Assembly: GCA_028717785.1 (NCBI GenBank) | Contig: JAQUND010000004.1 | Coordinates: 1-64,000 of the forward strand | Direction: 5' to 3' | DNA from: Candidatus Nanoarchaeia archaeon | Lineage (GTDB): Archaea > Nanoarchaeota > Nanoarchaeia > SCGC-AAA011-G17 > JAFCDX01 | Length of the DNA: 64,000 nucleotides | Shown: one piece after another, positions 3,838 to 22,290 of the stretch | Layout: each line of letters opens with the position of its first letter | Numbering within the stretch: position 1 is the stretch's first letter | Made by a program: the position numbers and the translations under genes | The notes under the pieces: model-generated | Seen by the model: only the letters and a program-made list of their open reading frames with translations | Database searches by the model: none | Told to the model about the DNA's origin: nothing

Positions 3838-6800
3838 GGTTAAGAAATAAATTTGCTTCAACCGTTAGGTGGAAGACTCAGCTTGAAAAGCGAAGAAGAG
3901 CGTGGCAAGCTACGATATGCCTCGGGGAGGTGCATGCAACCATAGAACCGAGGATGCTTGAATATGACTTCATTTCTTAGGAAAATCTGAGAAGATGGCG
4001 AACGTGGAAAATTGAAGCGTCTTAGTATCCACAGGAAAAGAAATCAATAGAGATGCTGTTATTATCAGCGAGAGAAAGCAGCAGAGAATAAACCGAATCT
4101 GTTATAGAAATATAATAGAAATGTGGTGTTATAAGACTCGTTTTTATTCCTCTTTATTATAAACAAAGTTTTCTGGAATGTAACACTATAGAGGGTGATA
4201 GTCCCGTAGTTTATATTTAAAAAGAAGTACGAGTATCTTGAGTATGATTCATTGGAATTTGAGTCAAAATTTGGGAGTCATCAACTCCTAATTCTAAATA
4301 TATTTCAAGTCTGATAGCGTAACAAGTACAGTGATGGAACGTTGAAAAGAACTTTTAACAAAGAGTTAAAAGATCCTGAAACCTAACGGTGATTGTATGA
4401 TGCTGTTCTACGGAATTGCATCGTACGTTTCGAATAACGGACCAGGGAGTTTATGTGAGTGGCGAGGATAATCTTTACAATGAGTATCCGAAGCGAAAGC
4501 GAAATTTCGCAGTTCACGAGGAAAGAGATATGAAAATGTCTTAAGTCACTCATGTATCACCCGAAACCAGTTGATCTAATCCTGAGCAAGGCGAAGTCTC
4601 TTTAAACTGAGATGGAGGCCTTAAGAGGTTCTGTGAGAAAGCGTTCTTCTGACTTGGGATTAGGGGCGAAATACCAATCGAAACTGGTGATAGCTGGTTC
4701 CTGCCGAATTAGATCTGAGTCTAGTCTTAAATGAGGTAGCTTAAAGGGTAGAGATACTGATTTAGGGTTTAGGACAGGAAACTGTTCGACTCTTCGTCAA
4801 ACTCAGAATATTTAAGCACCTAAGATTTTAGGAAACGGGGGCGCGGGGTAAACTTGCGTTCCGAAAGGGGAACAACCCAAGACTATAGTTAAGGTCCCAA
4901 AATACTAATTAAGTGTAAAAGGTGGAAAAGTGTATATAATCTTAGACAGCAGGGAGGTAGGCTTAGAAGCAGCCATCCTTTAAAGAAAGCGTAATAGCTC
5001 ACCTGTCAAGATTATGTGCCTTGAAAATGGACGGGGCTAAATTAGTTACCGATACTATAGATGTCTTAAAAGACAGTGGTAGGCAGGCGTTCTTTTTGGG
5101 TAGAACTTTTTTCGTAAGAAAGAAGGGACCGAGAAGAAATGAGAATCCTGGTAGTAGTAAGGAGCAAAACAAAGTGAGAATCTTTGGTACCGAAAGGGCA
5201 AGGGTTTCTCAGCAATGCAAATCAGCTGAGAGTAAGTCGATCCTAACTATAATCTAATTGAAAAAATGGGAAAGGGAAAAAGGTTAATATTCCTTTACTG
5301 ATTAGATACGTTTTGGCGACAAAAGATTAATTTCTGACACTTTTGGATAGACTGACATTTCTCGTCGGGAATGTTAATTATAATAAATCAAGGGAGTATT
5401 GTAATGATGAGAACTTGATTAAATTTAAGGAGCAAGCTTTAAGTTTGTTCAGTTGACACCAAGAGTCCATGAAAAAGGAATTAATAAGGAATCTAATCAA
5501 TCGTACCCAGAACCAGCACAGGTGCCCCTAGGTGAAAAACTTAAGGTATGAGGGAGTAATCGAGTTAAGGGAACTCGGCAAATTGGTCCCGTAACTTTGG
5601 AATAAGGGATTCCTGCGATTGTTTTTTTTAAAAGCGATTACAGGACGCAGTGACCAAGATGACCCAACTGTTTAACAAAAACGTAGCTTTCCGCAACCCT
5701 TAAAAGGTTAGTATGGAAGGTGAAGTCTGCCCAATGCTAGCATCCGAATATCCTTTTCAAGGGATTCAAGGACTAGTGAATGGCGGGAATAACTATAATT
5801 CTCTTAAGGTAAAATATTACGATTGCTTTAAGATCCAGTTAAATAGTTTAATTAAAGATGGAATAAAAATTTGGCTATATGCTGGAAAATCCGAGTATAT
5901 TTGAATACTTTTTAAAAAAGTAAAAATTTCAAATTGCGGACAATCAGCAGGAAAGACTTAAAAAATTTTAAATTTTTTTTAAGAATCTTCAGAGACTATA
6001 CGCCGAACATAATTTTTTATGAAGATATAGTCCGATCCTTGTAGCGATATAAGGAATTAACAAGAAATTGTTAATCGCCAATTAAAAATTGGTAAGTAAT
6101 TCTATAAAGAATGAAGTAACATAAATGAGCGTAATACCTTGTCGTTTTATTGACGACTTGCATGAATGGCTTAATGAGGTTGTCACTGTCCCTAACTTGA
6201 TCCCCCCGAACACACCATTCCGGTGCAAAGGCCGGAGTCCTCCAGTGGGAAGTAAAGACCCCGTGAAGCTTTACTGTAGTCTATTATTGTGGTATGAGTT
6301 TTGTTGTATAGCGTAGGTGGGAGCTGTCATGATTCAGACGCTAGTTTGAATATAGGCGAAATGTGTAACACCACTTTTCAGAACTCGTATTGCTTACTTT
6401 CGAAAGAAAGGACACTATTAGATGGACAGTTTGGCTGGGGCGGCACTCTGCTGAAAGTATATCAGCAGAGCCCAAAGGTCAGCTCATCAGGTTTAGAAAT
6501 CCTGAGTAGAGTGCAAGAGCAAAAGCTGGCTTGACTGTGTTATGACTAATAAATAACGCAGAAAGGAAACTTGGGTCTAGCGAACCCCTGTACCCCTTTG
6601 TTGGGGGTCAGGGCTGACAGAAAAGCTACTCCGGGGGTAACTGAGTTGTCGCGCCTAAGCGCCCACAGCGACGGCGCGGTTTGCTACGACGATGTCGGCT
6701 CGCCTTATCCTGGCCGTGCAGAAGCGGCCAAGGGTGGGGGTGTTCACCCATTAAAAAGGCTCGTGAGCTGGGTTCAATACGCTGTGAAGCAGTATGTTTA

Positions 6801-11966: not shown

Positions 11967-12075
11967 TTTAATAATATTTTATTATAAAATGTAATGTTTC
12001 ATTATTTATAAGCTTTTCTGTATTTAATTAAATATCTATTGATAATTATAATATATGTTACTATTTTTAAATAGG

Positions 12076-12100
12076 AACAAATGGAAAGATTTATATATTA
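12076..12100 (+). promoter_or_regulatory. BRE/TATA promoter of the DGR-MoxR-VWA operon
   Basis: AACAAATGGAAAGA followed by TTTATATA (12090-12097) matches the window-wide promoter motif. It lies about 50 bases upstream of the first DGR target gene, leaving room for a leader of roughly 25 bases. No promoter of this quality appears between the following genes up to 17541, so the six genes through target 3 are probably one transcript. Confidence 0.7.
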
Positions 12101-12145
12101 GTTCAATGCTACAAAGTAGTATAATTTACTATGATAGAGTAGAAA

Positions 12146-12859
12146 ATGAAACTAAAAATACCTGATAAAATATTTGGAGAACCTATAGAAGGAGCAATGG
12201 AAAGAAGATTTCCTAAGGATAATTCAACTAATCCAATAATTGATCCAGTAATAGTTCCAGATACAAATTCTAAAAATATAGATGGTTATATTTACATTCC
12301 TTCTATAAACTTATATGTTTCTAAAGAAAGAATATTACAAGGAAATAATTGGTATAATGCTCATAAAGAATTATTAAAAAATAATCAACAAATGTTAACA
12401 ATACCCCAATTTATAGAATTCTTAAAATATACAAAAACAAATAATCCAGAAATTTATAATGATATTATTGAAGTTAGAGATCCATGGAGAGCAGAATGGT
12501 TAGATGCAGATTTTAAAGTTAAAAATAAGAAATTATATATTAATTATAATCATATTCTAGATTCAAAAGGAAATTTAATACCTAAAAACTTAGAATTATT
12601 AGAAAACTGTTTAATGGAAGATAAAACCCCTGGAATAGATTTAGAATCATGGTTAAATAATTCTATAAAACAAGGATTACCTAAAAAAGATGTAAATTCA
12701 GGAAGTTTATATTATTATTGCCCTATGAAAGATAATAATTCTGTTGTGGGGTTCGTCGCTGGCTCTGGTGGGGCTAGCCTTGACTGCAGTGGGAATCCTC
12801 ATGATGCTAGTGTGGCGCTCGGGGTGCGTCCGGCAAAAATTTTTGAAGGTGTAAAATGA
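12146..12859 (+). CDS. DGR target protein 1 (C-type-lectin-like variable protein)
   Basis: A 237-aa protein. Residues 1-40 are the tag shared by all three targets (KIFGEPIEGAMERRFPKDNS). A middle scaffold follows, with TIPQFIEFLKY and a WLDADF segment, then GLPKKDVNSG and finally the variable region, residues 200-227. The C-terminal pattern of a glycine-rich strand, invariant Cys, NPH and ALGV resembles DGR C-type-lectin/FGE-type target domains. No signal peptide or membrane segment is seen, so it is probably cytoplasmic. Unlike targets 2 and 3, the sequence after its variable region lacks the GCGCC-GAA-GGCGC hairpin. Its stop overlaps the next start (ATGA). Confidence 0.85.
   Translation: MKLKIPDKIFGEPIEGAMERRFPKDNSTNPIIDPVIVPDTNSKNIDGYIYIPSINLYVSKERILQGNNWYNAHKELLKNNQQMLTIPQFIEFLKYTKTNNPEIYNDIIEVRDPWRAEWLDADFKVKNKKLYINYNHILDSKGNLIPKNLELLENCLMEDKTPGIDLESWLNNSIKQGLPKKDVNSGSLYYYCPMKDNNSVVGFVAGSGGASLDCSGNPHDASVALGVRPAKIFEGVK
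12743..12826 (+). repeat. DGR variable repeat VR1 (84 bp)
   Basis: It aligns without gaps to the template repeat at 17795-17878. By hand count 17 of the 25 template adenines are replaced (15 by G, 2 by T). Only one other position differs, C to T at position 5. It is in frame with target 1, residues 200-227. There is no downstream hairpin, so this copy may no longer be an efficient homing target. Confidence 0.9.
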
Positions 12860-13005
12860 AAATAAAAATAAGCATATCCATAGATGAAGAAAAAATAAAA
12901 TTATTAGAAAAATTAGTTTCTAATGGAAAATTTAGAAATAAATCTCATATTATAGAATTTAGTTTAGATAAAACATTGAAGGAGGAAATTAAAAATGGTT
13001 TATAA
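12856..13005 (+). CDS. Ribbon-helix-helix DNA-binding protein, 49 aa
   Basis: The small frame begins MKIKISISIDEEKIKLLEKL and continues GKFRNKSHIIEFSLDKTL. This is the classic CopG/Arc pattern: a beta strand KISISI, helix, turn and second helix with an N-K-S-H-I-I-E segment. It starts within the end of target 1 (ATGA overlap) and its stop lies inside the start of the ATPase gene. The overlap makes translational coupling likely. The protein could autoregulate the DGR operon. It would be missed by a length filter. Confidence 0.8.
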   Translation: MKIKISISIDEEKIKLLEKLVSNGKFRNKSHIIEFSLDKTLKEEIKNGL

Positions 13006-14167
13006 AAATTCAAATGAAGTTATGCAATTATCAGGAGTTCCTATCTATATGCAAGATATAGTTAGTGCTTGTCTAAAAGGAAAATTAAATTTATTTTTAC
13101 AAGGGGATACTGGATCAGGAAAAACACAATTAGCTGCAGATGCAATGTCTTATTTTCCTAATGAAAGTTTATTTGTTTTAGGAAGAAATGATATGGATAC
13201 AAGAGAATTATTCCAACAATTTAATTTAGATAAATTAAAGACAGCTAAATCAAGTTCAGAATTAAAAACAGTAAGTGATAAAATAGATACAAAATTAATA
13301 GTTGTTGATGAAATGCCTAACTGTGTTCCAGCAGTAAGAGCACAATTATTTAATTTATTTGATGGTTACATTGAATTAGATGGTAAAAAATATAATATTG
13401 GAAACGGATATTCTGTAGGTATAGCAACAGGGAATATTGGACAAAGATTTACAGAATCTTCTAATGAATTAGGAAGAGCACTAAAAGATAGAATGCATGT
13501 TATTCTAGATGTAGATTATTTTAGACCAACAGCTTCAGATACTTTAGAAATTTTAGCAAATGATACAAATCCAAGAGTTGAATTTAGTAATGGTTCTAGT
13601 GAATCTGAAAAAATAATACAAGCTTCAAAAGAATTAGAAAAAAAAGAAATTCCTTTTGATAAGTTAATTATTGCTAATTATTTAATACACGGATTAGATT
13701 ATTGTACTGTTGATGGTAATCCTGCAAGTAAGACTAAATTAAAAGAGGAATGGCCAAATTGTTTAGAAAATCATAGTGCTGGAAGTGATGAATCTTTAGT
13801 ATTGCCTGTTTCTGTTAGAGCTGCAAAATCAATAATTAGATTATCTCAAGCACTAGATGAGATTGTTGCTTCTCAAAATGGAAATGTTGATAATACTCAA
13901 TCTATGTTGCAAGCTTACAAACTTGTTTCTGCTTATTCAGGTGTTTTAAATGAAGCTGAAGTAAAAGCAAAATATCAAGGAGATAAATATGCAGCTATGG
14001 ATGCAATAATTGCTTCTACAAATACACAATTACAGCAAAAACAAGCTGATTTAGCTGCTGGTTTTGATATGATTAATTCTGGAAAATTAGATCAAAAAGT
14101 TTTAGATTTGTTTTGTGGAAGATGGAATTTTATGAAAAGCATTTTGGAGAGTTTTGTTAAAAAATGA
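12995..14167 (+). CDS. MoxR-type AAA+ ATPase
   Basis: A 390-aa ATPase. Walker A is GDTGSGKT (residues 37-44), Walker B is LIVVDEMPN (near 100-106), and sensor-1 and arginine-finger regions follow in GIATGN and ELGRALKDRM. The PAVRAQLFNLFDGYIEL insert after Walker B is the MoxR/CbbQ pattern. MoxR proteins usually work with a VWA-domain partner as a chaperone that remodels or activates a target; such a partner lies two genes downstream. GGAGG about ten bases before the ATG is one of the best Shine-Dalgarno sites in the window. The C-terminus overlaps the start of target 2 (ATGA). Confidence 0.92.
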   Translation: MVYKNSNEVMQLSGVPIYMQDIVSACLKGKLNLFLQGDTGSGKTQLAADAMSYFPNESLFVLGRNDMDTRELFQQFNLDKLKTAKSSSELKTVSDKIDTKLIVVDEMPNCVPAVRAQLFNLFDGYIELDGKKYNIGNGYSVGIATGNIGQRFTESSNELGRALKDRMHVILDVDYFRPTASDTLEILANDTNPRVEFSNGSSESEKIIQASKELEKKEIPFDKLIIANYLIHGLDYCTVDGNPASKTKLKEEWPNCLENHSAGSDESLVLPVSVRAAKSIIRLSQALDEIVASQNGNVDNTQSMLQAYKLVSAYSGVLNEAEVKAKYQGDKYAAMDAIIASTNTQLQQKQADLAAGFDMINSGKLDQKVLDLFCGRWNFMKSILESFVKK

Positions 14168-14928
14168 AACCAAGAATACCTGATAAAATATTTGGAGAAC
14201 CTATAGAAGGAGCAATGGAAAGAAGATTTCCTAAAGATAATTCAAATCCAGTAATTGATCCAGTAGTTCCAGATATAAATTCTAAAAATATAATTACAGA
14301 TCATCCAGATTTCTGGACAATACATAATATAAATTATAATAATCAATTATATTCAACACATTTATTAAAAACTTTATTAGATAATGGAAATTCAAAAACA
14401 CAAGAAGATTGGTCTATTTATACTAAAAATAATCAATTTGGAGTAGCAGATTTACCTTTTTATTTTGCTTTATTTAATACTTTATATCAAAATAAAAATA
14501 ATCCTTTAGCAGAACCAATTAAACAGTTCATAAATAAACAAATGTTAGAAAAATGGTTAATGACTTTAACAAGAATAGAATATAATTCAAATGGTAGTGA
14601 TAAAATAATTTATAATTATAATTTAACTAATCAATCTGAAAAACAATTAAATATAGTTGAACCAGATAATTTTATTTTACAATTAAATGAACCAAATACT
14701 TTAGAAGCATTGGTTGGTTGTAATAATATTCAAAATATAAATGATGTTTTTAAATGGATTACTGGAAAAAATACTTATTTATGGCGTGTAAATAATAAAC
14801 CAAGTAAAAAAAATATTCGTGTTGTGGGGTTCGGCGCTGGCTCTGGTAGGGCTTACCTTGGCTGCGATGGGGATCCTCGTGATGCTAGTGGGGCGCTCGG
14901 GGTGTATACGTGCGCCGAAGGCGCGTAA
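14164..14928 (+). CDS. DGR target protein 2 (C-type-lectin-like variable protein)
   Basis: A 254-aa protein starting inside the ATPase stop codon. The N-terminal tag (PDKIFGEPIEGAMERRFPKD) is nearly identical in DNA to that of targets 1 and 3. The middle (about residues 45-215) is the most divergent of the three, with FWTIHNINYN and LPFYFALFNTLYQ segments. The variable region is residues 220-247 and is followed by YTCAEGA, identical to target 3. No signal peptide is seen. The position between MoxR and its VWA partner strongly suggests that the three proteins act together. Confidence 0.85.
   Translation: MKPRIPDKIFGEPIEGAMERRFPKDNSNPVIDPVVPDINSKNIITDHPDFWTIHNINYNNQLYSTHLLKTLLDNGNSKTQEDWSIYTKNNQFGVADLPFYFALFNTLYQNKNNPLAEPIKQFINKQMLEKWLMTLTRIEYNSNGSDKIIYNYNLTNQSEKQLNIVEPDNFILQLNEPNTLEALVGCNNIQNINDVFKWITGKNTYLWRVNNKPSKKNIRVVGFGAGSGRAYLGCDGDPRDASGALGVYTCAEGA
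14821..14904 (+). repeat. DGR variable repeat VR2 (84 bp)
   Basis: Compared with the template, 19 of 25 adenines are replaced (18 by G, 1 by T). The only non-adenine change is the same C to T at position 5 as in VR1. It lies in frame with target 2 and is followed by the VR-associated hairpin. It is the most diversified of the three copies. Confidence 0.92.
14910..14926 (+). other. Hairpin downstream of VR2
   Basis: GCGCC (14912-14916) and GGCGC (14920-14924) form a 5-bp G/C stem with GAA loop, extendable by two G-U pairs. In a genome this A/T-rich such a stem is unusual. In phage BPP-1 a hairpin just after the variable repeat is needed for efficient retrohoming, so this is a plausible homing signal. 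Confidence 0.75.
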
Positions 14929-14948
14929 AAAAATTTAAGGAAATTAAA

Positions 14949-16715
14949 ATGAATTTACAAAAATTAAGACAAAAACTAAATTTACAAAAAAATAAAATAG
15001 GTTTAGTATGTGGAAATATAAACATTAAAGAGTATGATAATTCTAAAAATAATATTTCTGCTGGAATTAATCCAAATGGGTGGAATATTGAAATTTCTTT
15101 AAAAAAAGGTTTTGATCCAAAAAATGATAGTAGAGCAAGATTATATATGAAAAAGAAAAAAATTGAAGACGGATTAGAAAAACTTATTTCAGATGTTACA
15201 ACACATGAATTTGCACATTGGGAATTACCTTTAAATTCTAATTTAGGTTGTCCTTATAGTACTTATGAACATGATAAAATACTAGAAGCAGTAAAAGAAG
15301 AATTACCTGAAGATAAAAAACAGCATTCAAGTTATGTTGTAAATGCTTTTGAGGATATGATTATTAATCCAAGATGTAGAGAATACAATAAAGATTTTTC
15401 TGGACAAGTATTATTTTGGAATGATCAAGGTTTAAGTTGTAAAGGAAAATATACTCCTTTTTATGAAGCATTTATCAAATTAAATATGCATTTATTTGGA
15501 GATAGATGGGATAAAGCTTTATTAAAAAAATATTATACTAATGATAAGAAAGTTGATAATGCAGTTAAAAAAGTAATTCAAGAACTTAATTTACCAGAAA
15601 ATATCAAAGATAGTTCTATTTTATTTGATAAGAAAAAATGGCCTGAAATGTCTAAAATATTTGCAAGAAATTTATCTCCTTTATTAGATGTTAATCCTGA
15701 AGAAAGATTATCAGCTTATGATCAAGGTGATACTGGAAATGGAGAAAATGATAAAGAAGAACAAAAATCTGGAGATAATAAAAAAGAACAAGCAGGTAAT
15801 GGAATAGAAAAAAAATTAAAAACAAAAGATGGAAAAGAAGAAGTTTCTTATGGAAGATACTCTTCAAATGAACAAAAATCTAAAAATTTTACAAGTTTTG
15901 AACAATTAGATTCATTATATAAATTATTAGCAAGAGATATTCCTGTTAGGGTTGAAGCAATGACAAAAAGTAATGGTTTGAATATTTCTCCTTTAAATTA
16001 CAGACCATTTGATGAAGATACAGATGATTTTTCAAAAATAAAATTATCAAAATTATATGTAACTGAAAAAGGTTTAACTTTTGGTCATGTAAATCAACCA
16101 TTAACAATTAATGCAAAATCTAAAGTTCAAAGAAGAAGTTTTCCTTCTTTTAAAATGGTTATGATTGATAATTCTGGAAGTATGGAACAAGGAATTAATT
16201 CTAGTAATATAGGAAATACAAATTTTATTCCATGGGGAGATAATAGTAAATATCATCATGCTTTATTAGGATTTTATGGTATTGAAAATTATTTACAAAA
16301 ACAAGGAATAGCACAGTATATTGAACATGGTTTATCTTTATTTTCAAATTCAACTAGATTTAAACAATCCAATTTTTCAGGTATTGATGAAGTTAGAAAA
16401 CTTGCACTTGCACCTGAATTTGGCAATACTAAAATAAATTTAAATGTTCTTGAAACAGCCTTAAGTGGAAAACAAAGTTTTGTACTTTCTTTGTCAGATG
16501 GAGAAATTTCAGATTGGGATTCTCAAAAAAATAGATTTATGGATTTAGCTAAACAAAATTATTATGCCCATATACAAATTGGTAATTCAAGTCAGTTTAG
16601 CAATGATTTAGAATCTTCAGGAATTCCAGTTTTTTATGTAAATTCTGGAAATGATTTAAGTAAATTAATGGTTGATATCACTAAAAAAACTTATGGAGCT
16701 TTTGTAACAAATTAA
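14949..16715 (+). CDS. Metallopeptidase-VWA protein (DUF2201-like), MoxR partner
   Basis: A 588-aa protein using the ATG at 14949; a longer frame from a GTG at 14910 would overlap target 2 and lacks support. TTHEFAHWELPL carries an HExxH zinc motif at residues 86-90, followed by an FEDMIINPRCREYN segment, as in the putative metallopeptidase domain found with DUF2201. A low-complexity Lys/Glu/Gly linker lies near 255-300. The C-terminal VWA domain has the MIDAS motif DNSGSM (407-412) and SLSDGE. Family knowledge says VWA proteins of this kind work with MoxR ATPases. It ends two bases before target 3. Confidence 0.88.
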   Translation: MNLQKLRQKLNLQKNKIGLVCGNINIKEYDNSKNNISAGINPNGWNIEISLKKGFDPKNDSRARLYMKKKKIEDGLEKLISDVTTHEFAHWELPLNSNLGCPYSTYEHDKILEAVKEELPEDKKQHSSYVVNAFEDMIINPRCREYNKDFSGQVLFWNDQGLSCKGKYTPFYEAFIKLNMHLFGDRWDKALLKKYYTNDKKVDNAVKKVIQELNLPENIKDSSILFDKKKWPEMSKIFARNLSPLLDVNPEERLSAYDQGDTGNGENDKEEQKSGDNKKEQAGNGIEKKLKTKDGKEEVSYGRYSSNEQKSKNFTSFEQLDSLYKLLARDIPVRVEAMTKSNGLNISPLNYRPFDEDTDDFSKIKLSKLYVTEKGLTFGHVNQPLTINAKSKVQRRSFPSFKMVMIDNSGSMEQGINSSNIGNTNFIPWGDNSKYHHALLGFYGIENYLQKQGIAQYIEHGLSLFSNSTRFKQSNFSGIDEVRKLALAPEFGNTKINLNVLETALSGKQSFVLSLSDGEISDWDSQKNRFMDLAKQNYYAHIQIGNSSQFSNDLESSGIPVFYVNSGNDLSKLMVDITKKTYGAFVTN

Positions 16716-16716
16716 A

Positions 16717-17541
16717 ATGAAACTAAAAATACCTACAACAATATTTGGAGAACCTATAGAAGGAGCAATGGAAAGAAGATTTCCTAAAGATAATTCAAAT
16801 ACAATAATTGATCCAGTAGTTCCAGATATAAATAGATTACCAATGGAAGTTAATTCAAATATTAATCTTTCAGATTATGTTCAATTAGATATGTTTGGAT
16901 TATATGGTAAACAAGTTATTATATCTAAATTTGAAATACCCAAAGCAAATAATAAAAATTATGAAGATACTCATAGATTTGTTTTAGATCAAGGATTATA
17001 TATACCTACTCCAGTAATATTTATTAATTTTTTATCAAAAGTAATAGAAGCTTATAATAAAAAAATAGAATTATTTGATGGACAAGGAAATAAAATACAA
17101 GAAAAAGAAATAAATGATATGTATTTACATTTAACTAAAGATCATATTTCATCTTATAATGTTAAAGGTAAAGAAGGAGCATGGACTTGGCTAAATGCTC
17201 GCTTTATTAAGGGACAATTTAATGATTTAGATTTAGAAACTGTAATAGGAATAAATAATAATCAACTTCAAACAAAAAAAGAATCATTATCACGTTATTT
17301 AAATGAAACTTGTTATGTTGATTTAAATCCTCATTTTAATCATCAAGGATTGCCAAAACAAGAAGCAAAATCTTCTAATCAAGAATATAAACAAGGAAAA
17401 AATGTTTATTTTTGGAAACCTATAAAAGATCGTGTTGCGGGGTTCAACGCTTTCTCTGGTGGGGCTGACCTTTACTGCAATTGGAATCCTCATGGTACTG
17501 ATGTGGCGCTCGGGGTGTATACGTGCGCCGAAGGCGCGTAA
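16717..17541 (+). CDS. DGR target protein 3 (C-type-lectin-like variable protein)
   Basis: A 274-aa protein with the shared tag (IFGEPIEGAMERRFPKDNSN), a scaffold related to target 1 (compare AWTWLNARF with PWRAEWLDADF, and NHQGLPKQE with KQGLPKKD), and the variable region at residues 240-267. The tail YTCAEGA equals that of target 2. Its ATG follows the VWA stop by one base, giving tight coupling. It lies closest to the template repeat and RT, and its variable repeat is the least changed, suggesting the most recent copy from the template or the least selected one. Confidence 0.86.
   Translation: MKLKIPTTIFGEPIEGAMERRFPKDNSNTIIDPVVPDINRLPMEVNSNINLSDYVQLDMFGLYGKQVIISKFEIPKANNKNYEDTHRFVLDQGLYIPTPVIFINFLSKVIEAYNKKIELFDGQGNKIQEKEINDMYLHLTKDHISSYNVKGKEGAWTWLNARFIKGQFNDLDLETVIGINNNQLQTKKESLSRYLNETCYVDLNPHFNHQGLPKQEAKSSNQEYKQGKNVYFWKPIKDRVAGFNAFSGGADLYCNWNPHGTDVALGVYTCAEGA
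17434..17517 (+). repeat. DGR variable repeat VR3 (84 bp)
   Basis: Fourteen of 25 template adenines differ (9 to G, 5 to T) and no other base changes across 84 positions. Position 5 retains the template C, unlike VR1 and VR2. This is essentially perfect adenine-specific mutagenesis. It is followed by the GCGCC-GAA-GGCGC hairpin. Confidence 0.94.
17523..17539 (+). other. Hairpin downstream of VR3
   Basis: It is the same GCGCC/GGCGC stem and GAA loop as after VR2, at the same distance from the variable repeat, encoding the C-terminal CAEGA residues. The conservation of DNA here in two otherwise diverged genes supports a role in retrohoming rather than protein function alone. Confidence 0.75.
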
Positions 17542-17794
17542 AAAAATTTATGAAAAGATTTATTAATTTATTATTCTAAAATAATTTGTCTTAGCTTTAC
17601 TAATTTAAAACTTACCTAATAAGTTAATGAAAATAAGTAACTTAGACCACATGCATACTAATTATGACTAAATTCAAAAGATTGAGGTTATAAAATACAG
17701 TTATCTTAAAGAGTAATAATGAAGAAACCTTGGGAAAGTTTTTGAATGAAATTTATAATAGCCGTGAAAATTAGATTAGTATGCTACTTTAACT

Positions 17795-17878
17795 GTTGCG
17801 AGGTTCAACGCTAACTCTGATAGGGCTAACCTTAACTGCAATAGGAATCCTCATAATACTAATGAGGCGCTCGGAATG
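17795..17878 (+). repeat. DGR template repeat (TR)
   Basis: This 84-bp copy lies in the 360-base non-coding stretch 17542-17901 between target 3 and the RT. Read in the frame of the variable regions it is rich in AAC and AAT codons (FNANSDRANLNCNRNPHN), the codon type that adenine mutagenesis turns into many amino acids without stops. It has 25 adenines, and the three variable repeats differ from it almost only there. It is the donor, because it lies outside any target gene and directly upstream of RT. The rest of the 360 bases shows no gene, and probably forms the TR/spacer RNA needed for cDNA synthesis. Confidence 0.95.
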
Positions 17879-17901
17879 GTCTATGCTGCTAAGATTGTAA
17901 A

Positions 17902-18942
17902 ATGTATACTTATACTAATTTATATAATAAAATTTATTCTTATAACAATTTAGTTTTAGCGTGGAAAAAAGCAAGAAAAGGCAAAACAAAAAAAGAATAT
18001 GTAATTGAATTCGAAAGTAACTTAATCGATAATTTATTAAAATTACAAGAAGAATTAAAAAATGAAACTTATAATATTATAAAATTAAAAAGATTTGTTA
18101 TTAGAGATCCAAAAACAAGAGTTATACATATTTCTAATTTTAGAGATAGAATAGTTCATCATGCTTTATGTAATTTAATAGAACCAATTTTTAAAAAGAT
18201 GTTTATTTATGATTCATGTGCAAATCAAATTGGAAAAGGAAATTTATTTGCAATAAAAAGATTTGATTTATTTAAAAGAAAAATAACTAAAAATAATACA
18301 AAAAATGCATTTTGTCTTAAATCAGATATAAAACATTATTTTCAAGAAGTTAATAATAGTATTCTTATAAAAATAATAGAAAGAAAAATAGCTGACAAAC
18401 AAGTAATAAATTTAATTAAATTAATCTTAAAGAATGGGCAAGAAAAAGAAGGTATGGGAATGCCTCTAGGTAATTTAACAAGTCAATTTTTTGCTAATAT
18501 TTATTTAAATGAATTAGATTATTTTATAAAACATAAATTAAAAATAAAATATTATATAAGATATGTAGATGATTTCATTATTTTACATAATTCAAAAGAA
18601 CAATTAATTAAATGGGAAGAAGAAATTAATTATTTTTTAAATAAAGAGTTAAAATTAAATTTACATCCAGAAAAAACAAAAATAGTTTATTTATCAAGGG
18701 GTATAGATTTTGTAGGTTTTAGGAATTTTTATCATTATAGATTATTAAGGAAGAGAAATATAAAGAAAATATTTTATAAAATTGAAAGTTACAAAAATAA
18801 TGAGATTAGTAAAGAAAAGTTTTTAGAAAGTTATCAAGGTTGGCAAGCATATGCAAAATGGGCAAATACTTACAAATTAAGAAAAAATATACTAAGAAGA
18901 TTAAATAATATAATATCTATTATTTACAATAGTAAAGAATAA
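17902..18942 (+). CDS. DGR reverse transcriptase
   Basis: A 346-aa retroelement RT of the DGR clade. Motif A is KSDIKHYF (near 140), motif B is GMPLGNLTSQFFANIYL (near 187) with the SQ that is typical of DGR RTs, and the catalytic YVDDF is near 220. A thumb region with IDFVGFRNF follows. There is no maturase or endonuclease domain, as expected for DGRs. The start MYTYTNLYNKIYSYNNL matches DGR RT N-termini. It reverse-transcribes the template RNA with adenine errors, and the cDNA replaces variable repeats. No avd-like gene is adjacent. Confidence 0.95.
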   Translation: MYTYTNLYNKIYSYNNLVLAWKKARKGKTKKEYVIEFESNLIDNLLKLQEELKNETYNIIKLKRFVIRDPKTRVIHISNFRDRIVHHALCNLIEPIFKKMFIYDSCANQIGKGNLFAIKRFDLFKRKITKNNTKNAFCLKSDIKHYFQEVNNSILIKIIERKIADKQVINLIKLILKNGQEKEGMGMPLGNLTSQFFANIYLNELDYFIKHKLKIKYYIRYVDDFIILHNSKEQLIKWEEEINYFLNKELKLNLHPEKTKIVYLSRGIDFVGFRNFYHYRLLRKRNIKKIFYKIESYKNNEISKEKFLESYQGWQAYAKWANTYKLRKNILRRLNNIISIIYNSKE

Positions 18943-18973: not shown

Positions 18974-19156
18974 ATGGTACAAGAAACAGTATGTATAAAT
19001 AAAGAAGCAATAACCGACCTGATAAAATTAAAGGAAGAATTTGATATGGTAATTGAATCTATAGAATTAATGGGAAATAAAGAATTTATGAATTCTTATA
19101 ATAAATCAAAAGAACAAATTAAAAAAAGAGAGTTTGTGAATTGGAATGCCTTATAA
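18974..19156 (+). CDS. Small antitoxin partner of the RelE-type toxin, 60 aa
   Basis: A 60-aa, helical, charged protein (MVQETVCINKEAITDLIKLK ... SKEQIKKREF) that overlaps the following toxin gene by 11 bases. The size, order and overlap are those of a RelBE-type antitoxin, though I do not see a clear DNA-binding motif. A TATA-like sequence (AAGTATATAAATAAG) lies just after the RT stop, so the pair probably has its own promoter. Confidence 0.7.
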   Translation: MVQETVCINKEAITDLIKLKEEFDMVIESIELMGNKEFMNSYNKSKEQIKKREFVNWNAL

Positions 19157-19400
19157 TATTCTTCCAACAAAAGAGTTTTCTAATGATTTTAAAAAGTTAA
19201 ATGAATTTACACAAAAAAGGATTAAAAAGAAAGTAGAAGAAGTTAGTGAAAATCCTGAAAGATATAAACATCTACATTATGATTTAAAAGGAAGTAATAG
19301 GCTTTGGATTGGAAAATTAAGGGTTGTATTTTCTTATAATGAAGAATTAAAAGAGCTTTACTTGGAAAAAATTATATTTGGACATAAATATAACGAGTAA
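19146..19400 (+). CDS. RelE-type mRNA interferase toxin
   Basis: An 84-aa protein with the RelE pattern: ILPTKEFSNDFKKLNEFTQK, then VSENPERYKHLHYDLKGSNR, and LWIGKLRVVFSYNEELKELY with the family's final strand. RelE toxins cut mRNA in the ribosomal A site when the antitoxin is degraded. The length is typical. It is the second such pair in the window and sits just after the DGR, where stability modules often accompany mobile regions. Confidence 0.88.
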   Translation: MPYNILPTKEFSNDFKKLNEFTQKRIKKKVEEVSENPERYKHLHYDLKGSNRLWIGKLRVVFSYNEELKELYLEKIIFGHKYNE

Positions 19401-19505
19401 ATTGTATTTTTTAAAAAATGAGATCATAAAAAATATTAAAAAGGTTTTTATAACATTGCAAATTGATAATATTATGGTAATAAATATATTTTCAGGTGGT
19501 GGACG

Positions 19506-20700
19506 ATGTTAATCGGTTTATTTCGGCGGTCCTTCTAAAGGTAAATCAACCTTTTTCAGAGCTGCAACTCTAGCTGAAGCAGCAATAGCAGCATATCCTT
19601 TTACTACTTTGAAGTCGGCTGAGGCTGTGGCATACGTAAAAGTAGATTGTGTTGAAAAAGAATTTAATGTTAAATGTAATCCAAGATTTGGTTATTGTTT
19701 AAATGGAAAACGTTTTGTTCCAATAAGATTAATGGATGTTCCTGGATTAATACAAGGAAGTCATGAAGGGCTTGGAAGAGGAAACGCATTTTTAGATGAT
19801 TTAAGACAAGCAGATTTGTTAATTCATATTATTGATATTTCTGGTTCAACTAATGAAAATGGAGAAGCAGTTGATCCTTTAACTTATGATCCACTAAATG
19901 ATGTTATCTTACTAGAAAAAGAAATTGATCTTTGGTTTTTTGGAATTTTAAATAAAGAATGGGCTAAATTTGTTAAATTAGTTAGATCAGATAAAAATGA
20001 AATTGATAAATCTATAGCAAAACAATTTTCTGGCTTAGGTGTTAATGAAGATATTGTAAATGAAGCTTTTAGAAAATTAAATATGAAAAAAGAAGATTTT
20101 TTTAAATGGGATGAAAAAGATTTGAAAAATTTATGTATAGAATTAAGAAGATTATCTAAACCCATTATAATTGCAGCTAATAAAATTGATATTCCTGGAG
20201 CAGATAAGAATTTTGAAAGATTAAAAGAAAGATTTCCAAATTATATTGTAGTTCCTTGTTCTGCAGAATCTGAATTAGCTTTGAAAGAAGCAGCTAAACA
20301 TAAATTAATTAATTATGTTCCTGGGGATAATAAATTTGAAATTATAGGAACTTTAAGTGATCAACAAAGAAAAGCTTTACAATTTATTCAAGAAAATATG
20401 TTAGATAAATATGGAAGTACAGGAGTTCAAGATATTTTAGATAAAGCAATATTTGATTTATTAAAATATATAGCTATATTTCCTGGTGGTGTTAACAAAT
20501 TACAAGATTCTGAAGGGAGGTATATTCCCGATTGCTTTTTACTGCCACAGAATAGTACAGCATTAGACTTCGCATATAAAATCCATCAAGATTTAGGAGA
20601 TAATTTTGTTAGGGCCATAAATGTAAAAACGAAAATATCTTTAGGCAAAGATTACAAATTAAAACATAGAGATGTGATAGAGATTAAGACAAAGAATTAA
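19506..20700 (+). CDS. YchF/Obg-family GTPase with TGS domain; 5' frameshift and recoded 3' end
   Basis: This is the archaeal YchF-type NTPase: P-loop GGPSKGKST, DVPGLIQGSHEGLGRGNAFL (switch II), ANKIDIPG (G4), and a C-terminal TGS domain (FPGGVNKLQ ... LGDNFVRAIN). The natural start MLIGLF at 19506 is out of frame with the P-loop. One extra T in the TTT at 19521-19523 would explain it, giving either a sequencing indel or a real frameshift. The last 60 or so codons (from about 20515) use more G/C-rich codons (AGG, CCC, CTG, GCC) than the rest, and a second copy of the last codons lies at 22336. The 3' end therefore looks imported with the homing-endonuclease gene. Confidence 0.85.
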
Positions 20701-22207
20701 ACCAAGGTCTATCAGGAACAATCCATTCTTTATAATTATTATTAAATTCCAATAAATTTTTGTTAAAACTTTCAATTTCATTTATATTAATTTTGATATT
20801 TAATAATTTTTTAATTAATAACAATTTACTAATAGATAAACTAGATTTATTATTTTTCCAATTATAGTATGTAAATTGGCTTATTTTAAGTTTATTACAC
20901 ATTTCTTTAATAGAATATAACTTTTCTATTTTAGAAAATATAATATTATTTAATTTTTTTGATAATCTTAACTTAGCATCTTCGTTTTTTGAACTAATTA
21001 TTGGAAATATTTTTGGATGGTTTGTTTTTTTAATTATATTAGCCATCTTTAAAATATGTAAATAACATTGTAATGTACTAACTCCAATACCCAATTTTTT
21101 AGCTAGATAAAATTTATCGCAACATTGTACTTTTTTTAATGATTTTATTACATTTTCAAGATTAGTTACTTTATAATTATTGTTCTTAAAAACGAGGTTT
21201 AATCTTTTCATAGCTTCATTTTCATTATTTGTTTTGTACTTGAACCCATTCAGATAATCATTTATTTTGAACCATTTATCTGTATTTTTTTCAAAAAATT
21301 TCTTCCAAATTTGTAATTCTTTATTATTTAATATTCCTGTCCTGAAATGACTAAATAAATTAATATTTCTTTTTTTAAATGGAGCTGAATTAAAACGAAG
21401 AATTTCACAAATTTCATCTCTTAAATTTTCATTTTTTATTCCTAAAGATATATTTCTACTCATTTCTACACAACCTTCAAATGTCAAAAAACCAATTATA
21501 TATGATCTCTTTATTTCATTGCTAGAATTTTTTATAATTTTAGGTATAGAGTATAATATTTTATTGCCAGAAGGAAAATTAAAATATACTTCTAAATATC
21601 TCCCTAAAATCTTATTTCGTGCAGTTATTATCCAAGCATCAGTCCTATCCTTTTTTATTTTCAAATTTATTTTAAATGTCTTAAAAACCCATTTATTAAA
21701 TGCTATAAGATTGCTTTTATAATAATCAATTATCATAAATTTATAACTCGTTCCATTTCTTGTTTTTTCTTTTATTAAACAACCATCTGCTTGGTGAGCC
21801 CCAACAATTTTGGCTAAATTGATATCTATACCTTTTACTGCTTTAATTTTATTAGTATATTTAGAACCACAATATAAATATGTTATTTTGGATTGTATTT
21901 CTGTTTTTAAAGTTATATAATCTAAAGTTGATTTCTTGCATAAACATTTCCATTCATTTAGTAATTCTTCTAAAACTGCAATTGAGATATTATTTTTATT
22001 CCTTAACATTTTTAGAATAGTGTCTGGATGATATTTTAGTTTTATAGATAAACTTTTACAGAAAGGGGATATTTTATATCCATTACTGTTAATTTCTTTT
22101 AAAATAGTATTTATAATAGAATTTAATCCATTACCACTACAACTAATCTGTGATTTAGCACCTATATCTTCTCTAGGATTATATAATTTGAATAAATCTA
22201 ATTGCAT
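20684..22207 (-). CDS. LAGLIDADG-type homing endonuclease with helix-turn-helix regions
   Basis: A 507-aa protein from the ATG at 22205-22207; the frame extends to a TTG at 22264, but that would start inside a conserved promoter-like element. The two degenerate LAGLIDADG helices are NLAKIVGAHQADGCL and RSYIIGFLTFEGCV, each beginning a saddle half. The C-terminal third contains helix-turn-helix-like segments (KKLGIGVSTLQCYLHILK; CNKLKISQFTYYNWK). It lies antisense to YchF, overlaps its stop by 17 bases and separates the GTPase gene from its displaced original 3' end. Promoter TTTATAAA lies about 25 bases upstream. Confidence 0.85.
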   Translation of the reverse strand: MQLDLFKLYNPREDIGAKSQISCSGNGLNSIINTILKEINSNGYKISPFCKSLSIKLKYHPDTILKMLRNKNNISIAVLEELLNEWKCLCKKSTLDYITLKTEIQSKITYLYCGSKYTNKIKAVKGIDINLAKIVGAHQADGCLIKEKTRNGTSYKFMIIDYYKSNLIAFNKWVFKTFKINLKIKKDRTDAWIITARNKILGRYLEVYFNFPSGNKILYSIPKIIKNSSNEIKRSYIIGFLTFEGCVEMSRNISLGIKNENLRDEICEILRFNSAPFKKRNINLFSHFRTGILNNKELQIWKKFFEKNTDKWFKINDYLNGFKYKTNNENEAMKRLNLVFKNNNYKVTNLENVIKSLKKVQCCDKFYLAKKLGIGVSTLQCYLHILKMANIIKKTNHPKIFPIISSKNEDAKLRLSKKLNNIIFSKIEKLYSIKEMCNKLKISQFTYYNWKNNKSSLSISKLLLIKKLLNIKININEIESFNKNLLEFNNNYKEWIVPDRPWFNSLS

Positions 22208-22241
22208 ATTTTTTATGGATAATTTTTGTTTATAAACTCTC

Positions 22242-22290
22242 CGCGCACACCTTGCAAGTTGCAATTTACTAGAAAATATATATTGGAGTA
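22242..22290 (-). repeat. Conserved element upstream of the homing-endonuclease gene, copy 1
   Basis: A 29-bp block (22242-22270) is identical to 46767-46795 upstream of the second LAGLIDADG gene. Both contain TTGCAACTTGCAAGGTGTGC and end at the same distance from a TATA box and the ATG. Next to it is the 18-bp core AAAATATATATTGGAGTA (22273-22290), also present at 46753-46770. Relative to the 29-bp block, the core is inverted between the two copies. Confidence 0.85.

Follow-up and report, generated by a model that had tools for sequence, protein, structure and literature searches.

NorQ–NorD and related pairs of a MoxR-type AAA+ ATPase and a von Willebrand factor A (VWA or vWA) co-chaperone serve fixed substrates. 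The sections of Kaur et al. 2020 (PMC7159879) on MoxR-vWA pairs describe a substrate peptide that is captured on the metal ion-dependent adhesion site (MIDAS) of the vWA domain and remodeled with the MoxR ATPase, and report ternary MoxR-vWA systems in bacteria together with their link to diversity-generating retroelements (DGRs). For archaea, the parts of the literature dealing with DGR targets term those of nanoarchaea orphans (Paul et al. 2015, PMC4372165), find clade 5 targets without recognizable domains, the reason being left open (Roux et al. 2021, PMC8144416), and describe clade 5F DGRs of Candidate Phyla Radiation (CPR) and DPANN lineages that lack conflict-system domains (Dore et al. 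2024, PMC10907252). Here we analyze 64,000 nucleotides (the window) of a Candidatus Nanoarchaeia archaeon, positions 1 to 64,000 of contig JAQUND010000004.1, in which a cassette at 12146–18942 interleaves three DGR targets with a ribbon-helix-helix (RHH) gene, a MoxR-type AAA+ ATPase and an HExxH-VWA protein. We propose, with a probability of roughly 55%, that cassettes of this kind encode a modular machine with which DPANN archaea recognize ligands inside the cell, in which clients docked by a tag on MoxR/VWA are diversified by the DGR and may serve defense.

The VMAP ternary systems, for which NTP-dependent sensing has been proposed, resemble this locus in bringing MoxR, a vWA protein and a DGR-diversified CLec or FGS protein into one neighborhood; as treated in the relevant parts of PMC7159879 and PMC10907252, they are bacterial, usually have the vWA domain fused to the lectin and contain VMAP as third component. 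The present locus likewise has MoxR and vWA in one operon, but it is archaeal, carries its vWA domain on one chain with an HExxH motif and has lectins encoded as separate genes, with two to four variable repeats (VRs) per locus and a shared N-terminal tag; no effector or FGS domain is fused to the vWA. Membership in the VMAP systems was rejected because no VMAP match was found among the operon proteins, and neither iSTAND nor FtsH appeared as a third component (no such Pfam match in these proteins at E up to 1). The loci called DGR 8, or clade 5A, in Dore et al. (PMC10907252) also have MoxR immediately upstream of DGR targets that bear N-terminal extensions; those targets have no vWA domain, and the section on them does not mention sharing of the N-terminus. 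The nanoarchaeal DGRs (PMC4372165) and archaeal clade 5 targets (PMC8144416) come from the same kind of host and, in the parts concerned, have targets without known domains or membrane helices; the words MoxR and ATPase are absent from both main texts. The partners found here offer a possible reason for the absence of membrane parts from targets of this sort. NorQ–NorD-like pairs have fixed substrates; this locus differs from them in its HExxH motif and in having several tagged clients that are exchangeable.

A full-text literature search for MoxR with DPANN, Woesearchaeota or archaeal DGRs, with most subscription papers (for example Paul et al. 2017) outside its scope, listed no paper that describes the arrangement. 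An earlier note on this DNA, made from the sequence, held that the alternation of DGR targets with MoxR and VWA genes had, to its author's knowledge, not been described. This was too strong, since bacterial MoxR-vWA systems with DGR-diversified proteins are published (sections of PMC7159879 and PMC10907252), whereas the archaeal form looks new: those systems, taken with the statement of Dore et al. on clade 5F, make the locus look like a new archaeal variant of MoxR-vWA/DGR systems. The shared tag is the new principle here. The note's interpretation, a recognition or conflict system of hypervariable binding proteins and an AAA+/peptidase machine, is supported in part.

The cassette and its retroelement

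Gene order and the adenine signature of the template repeat (TR) and VRs confirm what the earlier note had seen, a complete DGR with three targets woven among MoxR and peptidase-VWA genes. All features lie on the forward strand. Target 1 (T1, 12146–12859, 237 aa) is an open reading frame (ORF) made up of an N-terminal tag (codons 1–27, 12146–12226), a linker and a body that has homologues in relatives and carries a C-terminal repeat, VR1 (12743–12826). It is followed by a 49-aa RHH-like protein (12856–13005), a probable regulator with homologues at four related loci (L001, L002, L008, L015; L and G numbers denote loci and genomes of the comparison), and by the 390-aa MoxR-type ATPase (12995–14167; AAA_5, E = 3.2e-11; Walker A GDTGSGKT). 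Target 2 (T2, 14164–14928, 254 aa), recognized by its ORF, tag (14164–14244) and VR2 (14821–14904), precedes the 588-aa VWA protein (14949–16715), which carries a putative metal-peptidase motif of zincin-like HExxH type, HEFAH (15204–15218), and the MIDAS motif DNSGS of its VWA domain (16167–16181). Target 3 (T3, 16717–17541, 274 aa; tag 16717–16797, VR3 17434–17517) adopts a CLec-type fold in its structure model; Foldseek alone gave weak matches with this model (best E 0.67). The 3′ part consists, in order, of an RT-16 RNA (RF03019, 17615–17792; 54.8 bits, gathering threshold 50), the TR immediately downstream (17795–17878) and a 346-aa reverse transcriptase (RT) of DGR type (17902–18942). 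The RT matches RVT_1 (E = 1.8e-22), phrog_1423, named reverse transcriptase (E = 4.5e-117), and PDB 8ub7, which we take to be a DGR RT (E = 2e-47). Archaeal rRNA genes are present in the same window.

The window thus holds a DGR-type RT, a TR/VR pair with adenine-specific differences and a VR within a C-type-lectin-like target. Pooled over VR1–VR3, 50/75 A sites differ from the TR, as against 2/177 non-A sites (VR1, 17/25 and 1/59; VR2, 19/25 and 1/59; VR3, 14/25 and 0/59). The mutation spectrum was compiled from the VRs of 32 DGR loci, a VR pair being counted only if it had no more than one non-A mismatch per 60 bases. It is lopsided, with 283 A>G, 127 A>T and 17 A>C changes at the 14 loci coupled to MoxR/VWA genes and 166, 67 and 11, respectively, at the 18 other DGR loci. 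Coupled loci have two to four VRs in 14/16 cases, with none found in L006 and L068; the 38 other RT loci, which include three that themselves lie at MoxR loci (L075, L088, L099), yielded VRs in 18, a single one in 16 and two in 2.

The RT-16 RNA was found in the window and in 8/9 and 5/9 of the further loci scanned. It adjoins the DGR RT in the window, L001–L003, L005, L007–L011, L017, L055 and L068, and stands immediately upstream of the TR in the window, L002, L003, L008, L009, L010, L017 and L055, while in L006 it comes after the final client and is separated from the RT pieces by 5 kb. The RNA is probably part of the TR RNA. Hairpins of at least 6 bp, A+T-only ones among them, follow 9/21 VRs, against 1.3 expected by shuffling. 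None of this length follows a VR in the window, where short GC hairpins of 5 bp lie directly 3′ of VR2 (14912–14924, GAA loop, a possible target-site hairpin) and of VR3 (17525–17537); with z = −1.1 each, these are not significant alone.

The ATPase and the VWA protein show the features of a MoxR-VWA co-chaperone pair, namely Walker A/B, MIDAS and a VWA fold, the last seen in the structure model. The ATPase motifs GxGKTQ and DE are conserved across 16 aligned loci; simple motif patterns among relatives miss the MIDAS in L009 and Walker A in L055 and L060. HExxH is present in 21/23 loci and both histidines in 23/23. Structure matches of the VWA-protein model cover the VWA part alone, and the lack of a fold match for the HExxH part is not evidence of absence. 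DUF2201 is a metallopeptidase-VWA family found beside MoxR; its profile PF13203 matched 0/22 VWA-protein members at E up to 1 and 0/4 genomes, and distant kinship is possible. PDB sequence searches with the VWA protein, T3 and MoxR gave 0 matches each, bpMoxR scored only 14.5 bits on the window ATPase (cut-off 27), and PADLOC, PHROGs and NCBIfam gave no more than weak matches on the clients, as we call the proteins encoded between and around MoxR and VWA.

Linkage of DGR and MoxR/VWA across genomes

Searched with a profile of the VWA protein, a collection of species genomes yielded 22 loci, whose titles name DPANN lineages save for L007 ("archaeon"). The 11 closest (54–59% identity) have an RT in the locus in 11/11 cases, as two broken pieces in L006 and incomplete near the contig end in L005. 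MoxR is present in 9/9 of these loci whose contig reaches upstream to it, and targets lie on both sides of VWA in 10/10 with both flanks, the eleventh having one downstream. Relatives without the targets or the ATPase, which the earlier note had named as the finding that would speak against it, were looked for, and the closest loci keep both as far as their contigs reach. The linkage of DGR and MoxR/VWA is not accidental: conserved gene order, the couplings in the RT tree described below and the N-termini shared by ORFs near VWA led us to reject a chance neighborhood. A viral cassette was also rejected, as none of 60 pattern matches in IMG/VR (one scan) was related to the VWA protein.

The association is not obligatory. 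The genomes of 7/21 relatives, which may be incomplete, contain the machine and gave no RT match. In a phylum sample of 371 genomes, the VWA gene occurs in 27 and an RT like that of the window in 117; 13/27 VWA genomes also have such an RT (8.5 expected if independent), in 10 of them within about 6 kb. Such RTs are therefore common and a minority of them sit at MoxR/VWA, and the VWA gene, being in only 27/371 genomes, is not a housekeeping gene.

A tree of 48 RTs, those of 53 considered loci that gave at least 240 residues, was built from the RTs of these loci alone. It scored 19 RTs as coupled (including L084 and L088, which adjoin MoxR or a client) and 14 as free, each flanked by 2.5 kb or more in both directions, leaving uncounted 15 that are nearer a contig end. 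The coupled/free label requires 8 changes, at least 5 of them forced by well-supported branches, and is only mildly clustered (34/500 shuffles as low); a single coupled clade is rejected (p-AU 2e-84). Gain, exchange or loss of RT lineages has therefore occurred repeatedly at these loci.

The layout also occurs in L075, from the same genome as L015. This locus combines an AAA_5 ATPase with AAA lid, a client, a 560-aa protein with HELTH and DNSPS motifs (VWA_2, weak at E = 0.036) and a second client, which has the same first 19 residues as the first and a similar body; a DGR RT with two VRs is divergently placed. Because the VWA profile built here does not see this locus, the layout recurs beyond easily detected relationship. 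In L058, L064 and L067, which represent a further MoxR-VWA subtype, the two genes enclose a conserved one whose product starts like RIGELFY, and a shared tag is not evident.

A locus-private tag on different bodies

T1, T2 and T3 have nearly the same first 27 residues and different bodies. At most loci the genes flanking VWA share such a short N-terminal tag, private to the locus and carried on different bodies. Among 66 clients of 23 loci, listed by eye after the tags had been noticed, the best tag match was a sibling for 64 and the best body match for 32 (label shuffles, 0/5000). The start of each client was taken as the ATG nearest an upstream gene end, which is wrong for one L005 client; a cruder test using the first 80 residues from the longest ORF start had siblings best for 53/66 N-terminal parts and 32/66 bodies. 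The list left out six loci with a single whole or truncated client (L008, L012, L020, L056, L063, L068), three later finds (L075, L087, L091) and eight loci without an evident tag. A blind count took in most of the omitted loci, using all same-strand ORFs of at least 150 aa within 2.5 kb of the VWA gene, minus VWA, MoxR and RT. An N-terminal score of at least 60 to a sibling was reached by 67/105 of these ORFs versus 2/74 ORFs more than 4.5 kb away, with 25/33 loci contributing, L057 through two P-loop paralogues. A sibling was the best N-terminal match for 59/105 and the best body match for 32/105 (far ORFs, 6/74 and 1/74).

Tag similarity tracks locus and VWA kinship, not body class. Its median is 0.59 between siblings of different body class (36 pairs), 0.25 toward another locus whose VWA is at least 45% identical, whether body class is the same or different (259 and 210 pairs), and 0.11, the background, toward loci with VWA below 45%, again for same and different class (231 and 1365 pairs). 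Tag-peptide searches in 12 genomes placed 25/25 matches in the operon in seven of them (G001, G002, G005, G007, G016, G077, G101). Codon differences between sibling tags are mostly synonymous in L017 (25 synonymous to 2 other) and L055 (36 to 3). No tag is hydrophobic: a simple Kyte–Doolittle (KD) window exceeds 1.6 in 1/66 clients and never within the first 60 residues. As read from sequence, the locus-private tag, which the earlier note had missed, points to a physical or genetic link of the targets with MoxR-VWA.

The bodies are lectins in DGR loci and beta-helix and other folds in RT-less genomes. One tag is common to six clients of five body classes in L022, and another to seven clients in L053. 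The bodies of L018 and L019 are beta-helix-like (PMP repeats, E = 1.4e-9, in the L018 protein scanned; L019 has the same body class), and RT searches of the L018, L019 and L022 genomes found no match. The client bodies of L016, whose genome also has no RT match, are similar to proteins encoded next to the RTs of L106 (54% identity) and L111 (50%), which adjoin a conserved gene of 529–536 aa.

Proposed mechanism, alternatives and neighboring genes

In the proposed recognition machine, a MoxR ring of AAA+ type and a VWA co-chaperone that bears the HExxH domain would act jointly on the clients. Each client would be built from a short N-terminal tag fitting the machine of its own locus, a flexible linker and an exchangeable body; in the window and its closest relatives the bodies are C-type-lectin-like DGR targets, with a binding face that the neighboring RT would rewrite at adenines. 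The tag may dock on VWA, at the MIDAS, or on MoxR. Given a private tag on differing bodies and the known capture of peptides by the vWA MIDAS, the simplest reading equates the tag with this peptide or a portion of it, and leaves recognition to the bodies. Ligand binding by the diversified face would then allow ATP-driven remodeling, perhaps with the HExxH domain, of client or ligand, either of which this domain could cut. Because the clients lack a hydrophobic N-terminus in the KD window, intracellular action is likelier than adhesion. The purpose would be defense against invading elements; this conflict function we infer from likeness to the bacterial systems. We hold only tentatively to a broader form of the proposal, an archaeal tag-programmed system in which rewritable intracellular binders are plugged by a locus-private tag into one MoxR/VWA-peptidase machine and hand their ligands to the unfoldase-peptidase; DGR lectins, beta-helices and other folds would all be interchangeable modules of this single platform.

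What cellular DGRs do is an open question, particularly in DPANN archaea with targets lacking recognizable domains (parts of Roux et al. 2021, PMC8144416, and Dore et al. 2024, PMC10907252). A conserved MoxR/VWA partner and a locus-private tag offer such targets a concrete, testable partner and docking site, extend the DGR-MoxR-vWA linkage from bacteria to DPANN archaea and place the DGR lectin among several bodies that a single platform uses. Chosen binders could be brought to an AAA+ machine by the tag, provided that it is a portable docking signal.

Several observations weigh against the proposed machine. The hand-listed clients gave higher sibling counts than the blind count, tag matches in G017 and G018 also fall on other short contigs, and G009, G021 and G040 gave no match with the tag-peptide queries used. 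No tag is visible in eight divergent VWA loci (L054, L057, L058, L059, L061, L064, L065, L067). Counted over all sibling pairs, the tag codons show 369 synonymous versus 555 other differences, which limits the strong synonymous excess to L017 and L055. Tag DNA is nearly identical in the window, L002, L010, L014 and L016, where recent copying or gene conversion therefore plays a part. Tag and body are not told apart by Mantel tests (rho against VWA identity, 0.50 and 0.49; against MoxR identity, 0.58 and 0.61). At L099, MoxR is accompanied by a DGR RT and a client that begins in a tag-like way, with no VWA in the stretch examined. The catalytic Glu is lost (HGxxH) in L013 and L014, and the non-RT matches of PADLOC are weak only (DolB, 24 bits on MoxR; CARF4-PDDEXK, 15 bits on T2).

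Life in attachment to hosts, which is assumed for DPANN archaea, would suit export or assembly: MoxR/VWA would use the tag to assemble hypervariable lectins or move them to the cell surface, where they would bind hosts or partners, and the HExxH domain would trim the tag. Host attachment has been suggested for DPANN DGRs (passages of PMC10907252 and of the Shark Bay study, PMC7495880), and MoxR-VWA pairs assemble complexes (sections of PMC7159879). Against this, apart from the one client noted above, the simple KD window shows no hydrophobic segment in clients or VWA protein, no signal-peptide predictor having been run, and there is no recognized secretion gene among the listed neighbors, which were annotated solely by comparison with window genes. 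We regard export or assembly as unlikely. That the clients are tagged, and that an AAA+ protein comes with a peptidase-like motif, would also fit quality control, in which the machine unfolds or removes hypervariable proteins misfolded at the diversified face and the tag marks substrates. Tagged clients nevertheless occur at VWA loci in six genomes without an RT match (L013, L016, L018, L019, L021, L022; the genomes may be incomplete), and the bodies of L018 and L019 are beta-helices, which makes quality control improbable. Least probable is that the targets are passengers multiplied beside a MoxR/VWA pair with another job, their tags alike solely from recent duplication or gene conversion: the near-identical tag DNA of four other loci and the window, and a body relatedness that follows VWA identity roughly as closely as tag similarity does, would fit, but the synonymous excess in L017 and L055, the indifference of tag similarity across loci to body class, the repeated coupling of distinct RT lineages and the rarity of the non-housekeeping VWA gene in the phylum sample speak against it.

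Downstream of the RT, a small gene pair at 18974–19400, the second member ParE-like (E = 9e-5), may be a toxin-antitoxin pair beside the cassette, judging by this match; ORFs weakly similar to these small genes lie in the L002 and L017 loci (25–26% identity). A YGR210-like GTPase gene follows at 19460–20700, its first codons and P-loop region seemingly in different frames, which would seem to reflect a frameshift or an assembly error. Its end is overlapped by a minus-strand ORF of 526 aa (20684–22264) with a C-terminal helix-turn-helix (E = 4e-6). Upstream of the cassette, a Group I intron (61.5 bits) lies within the archaeal large subunit rRNA gene at 5831–6054.

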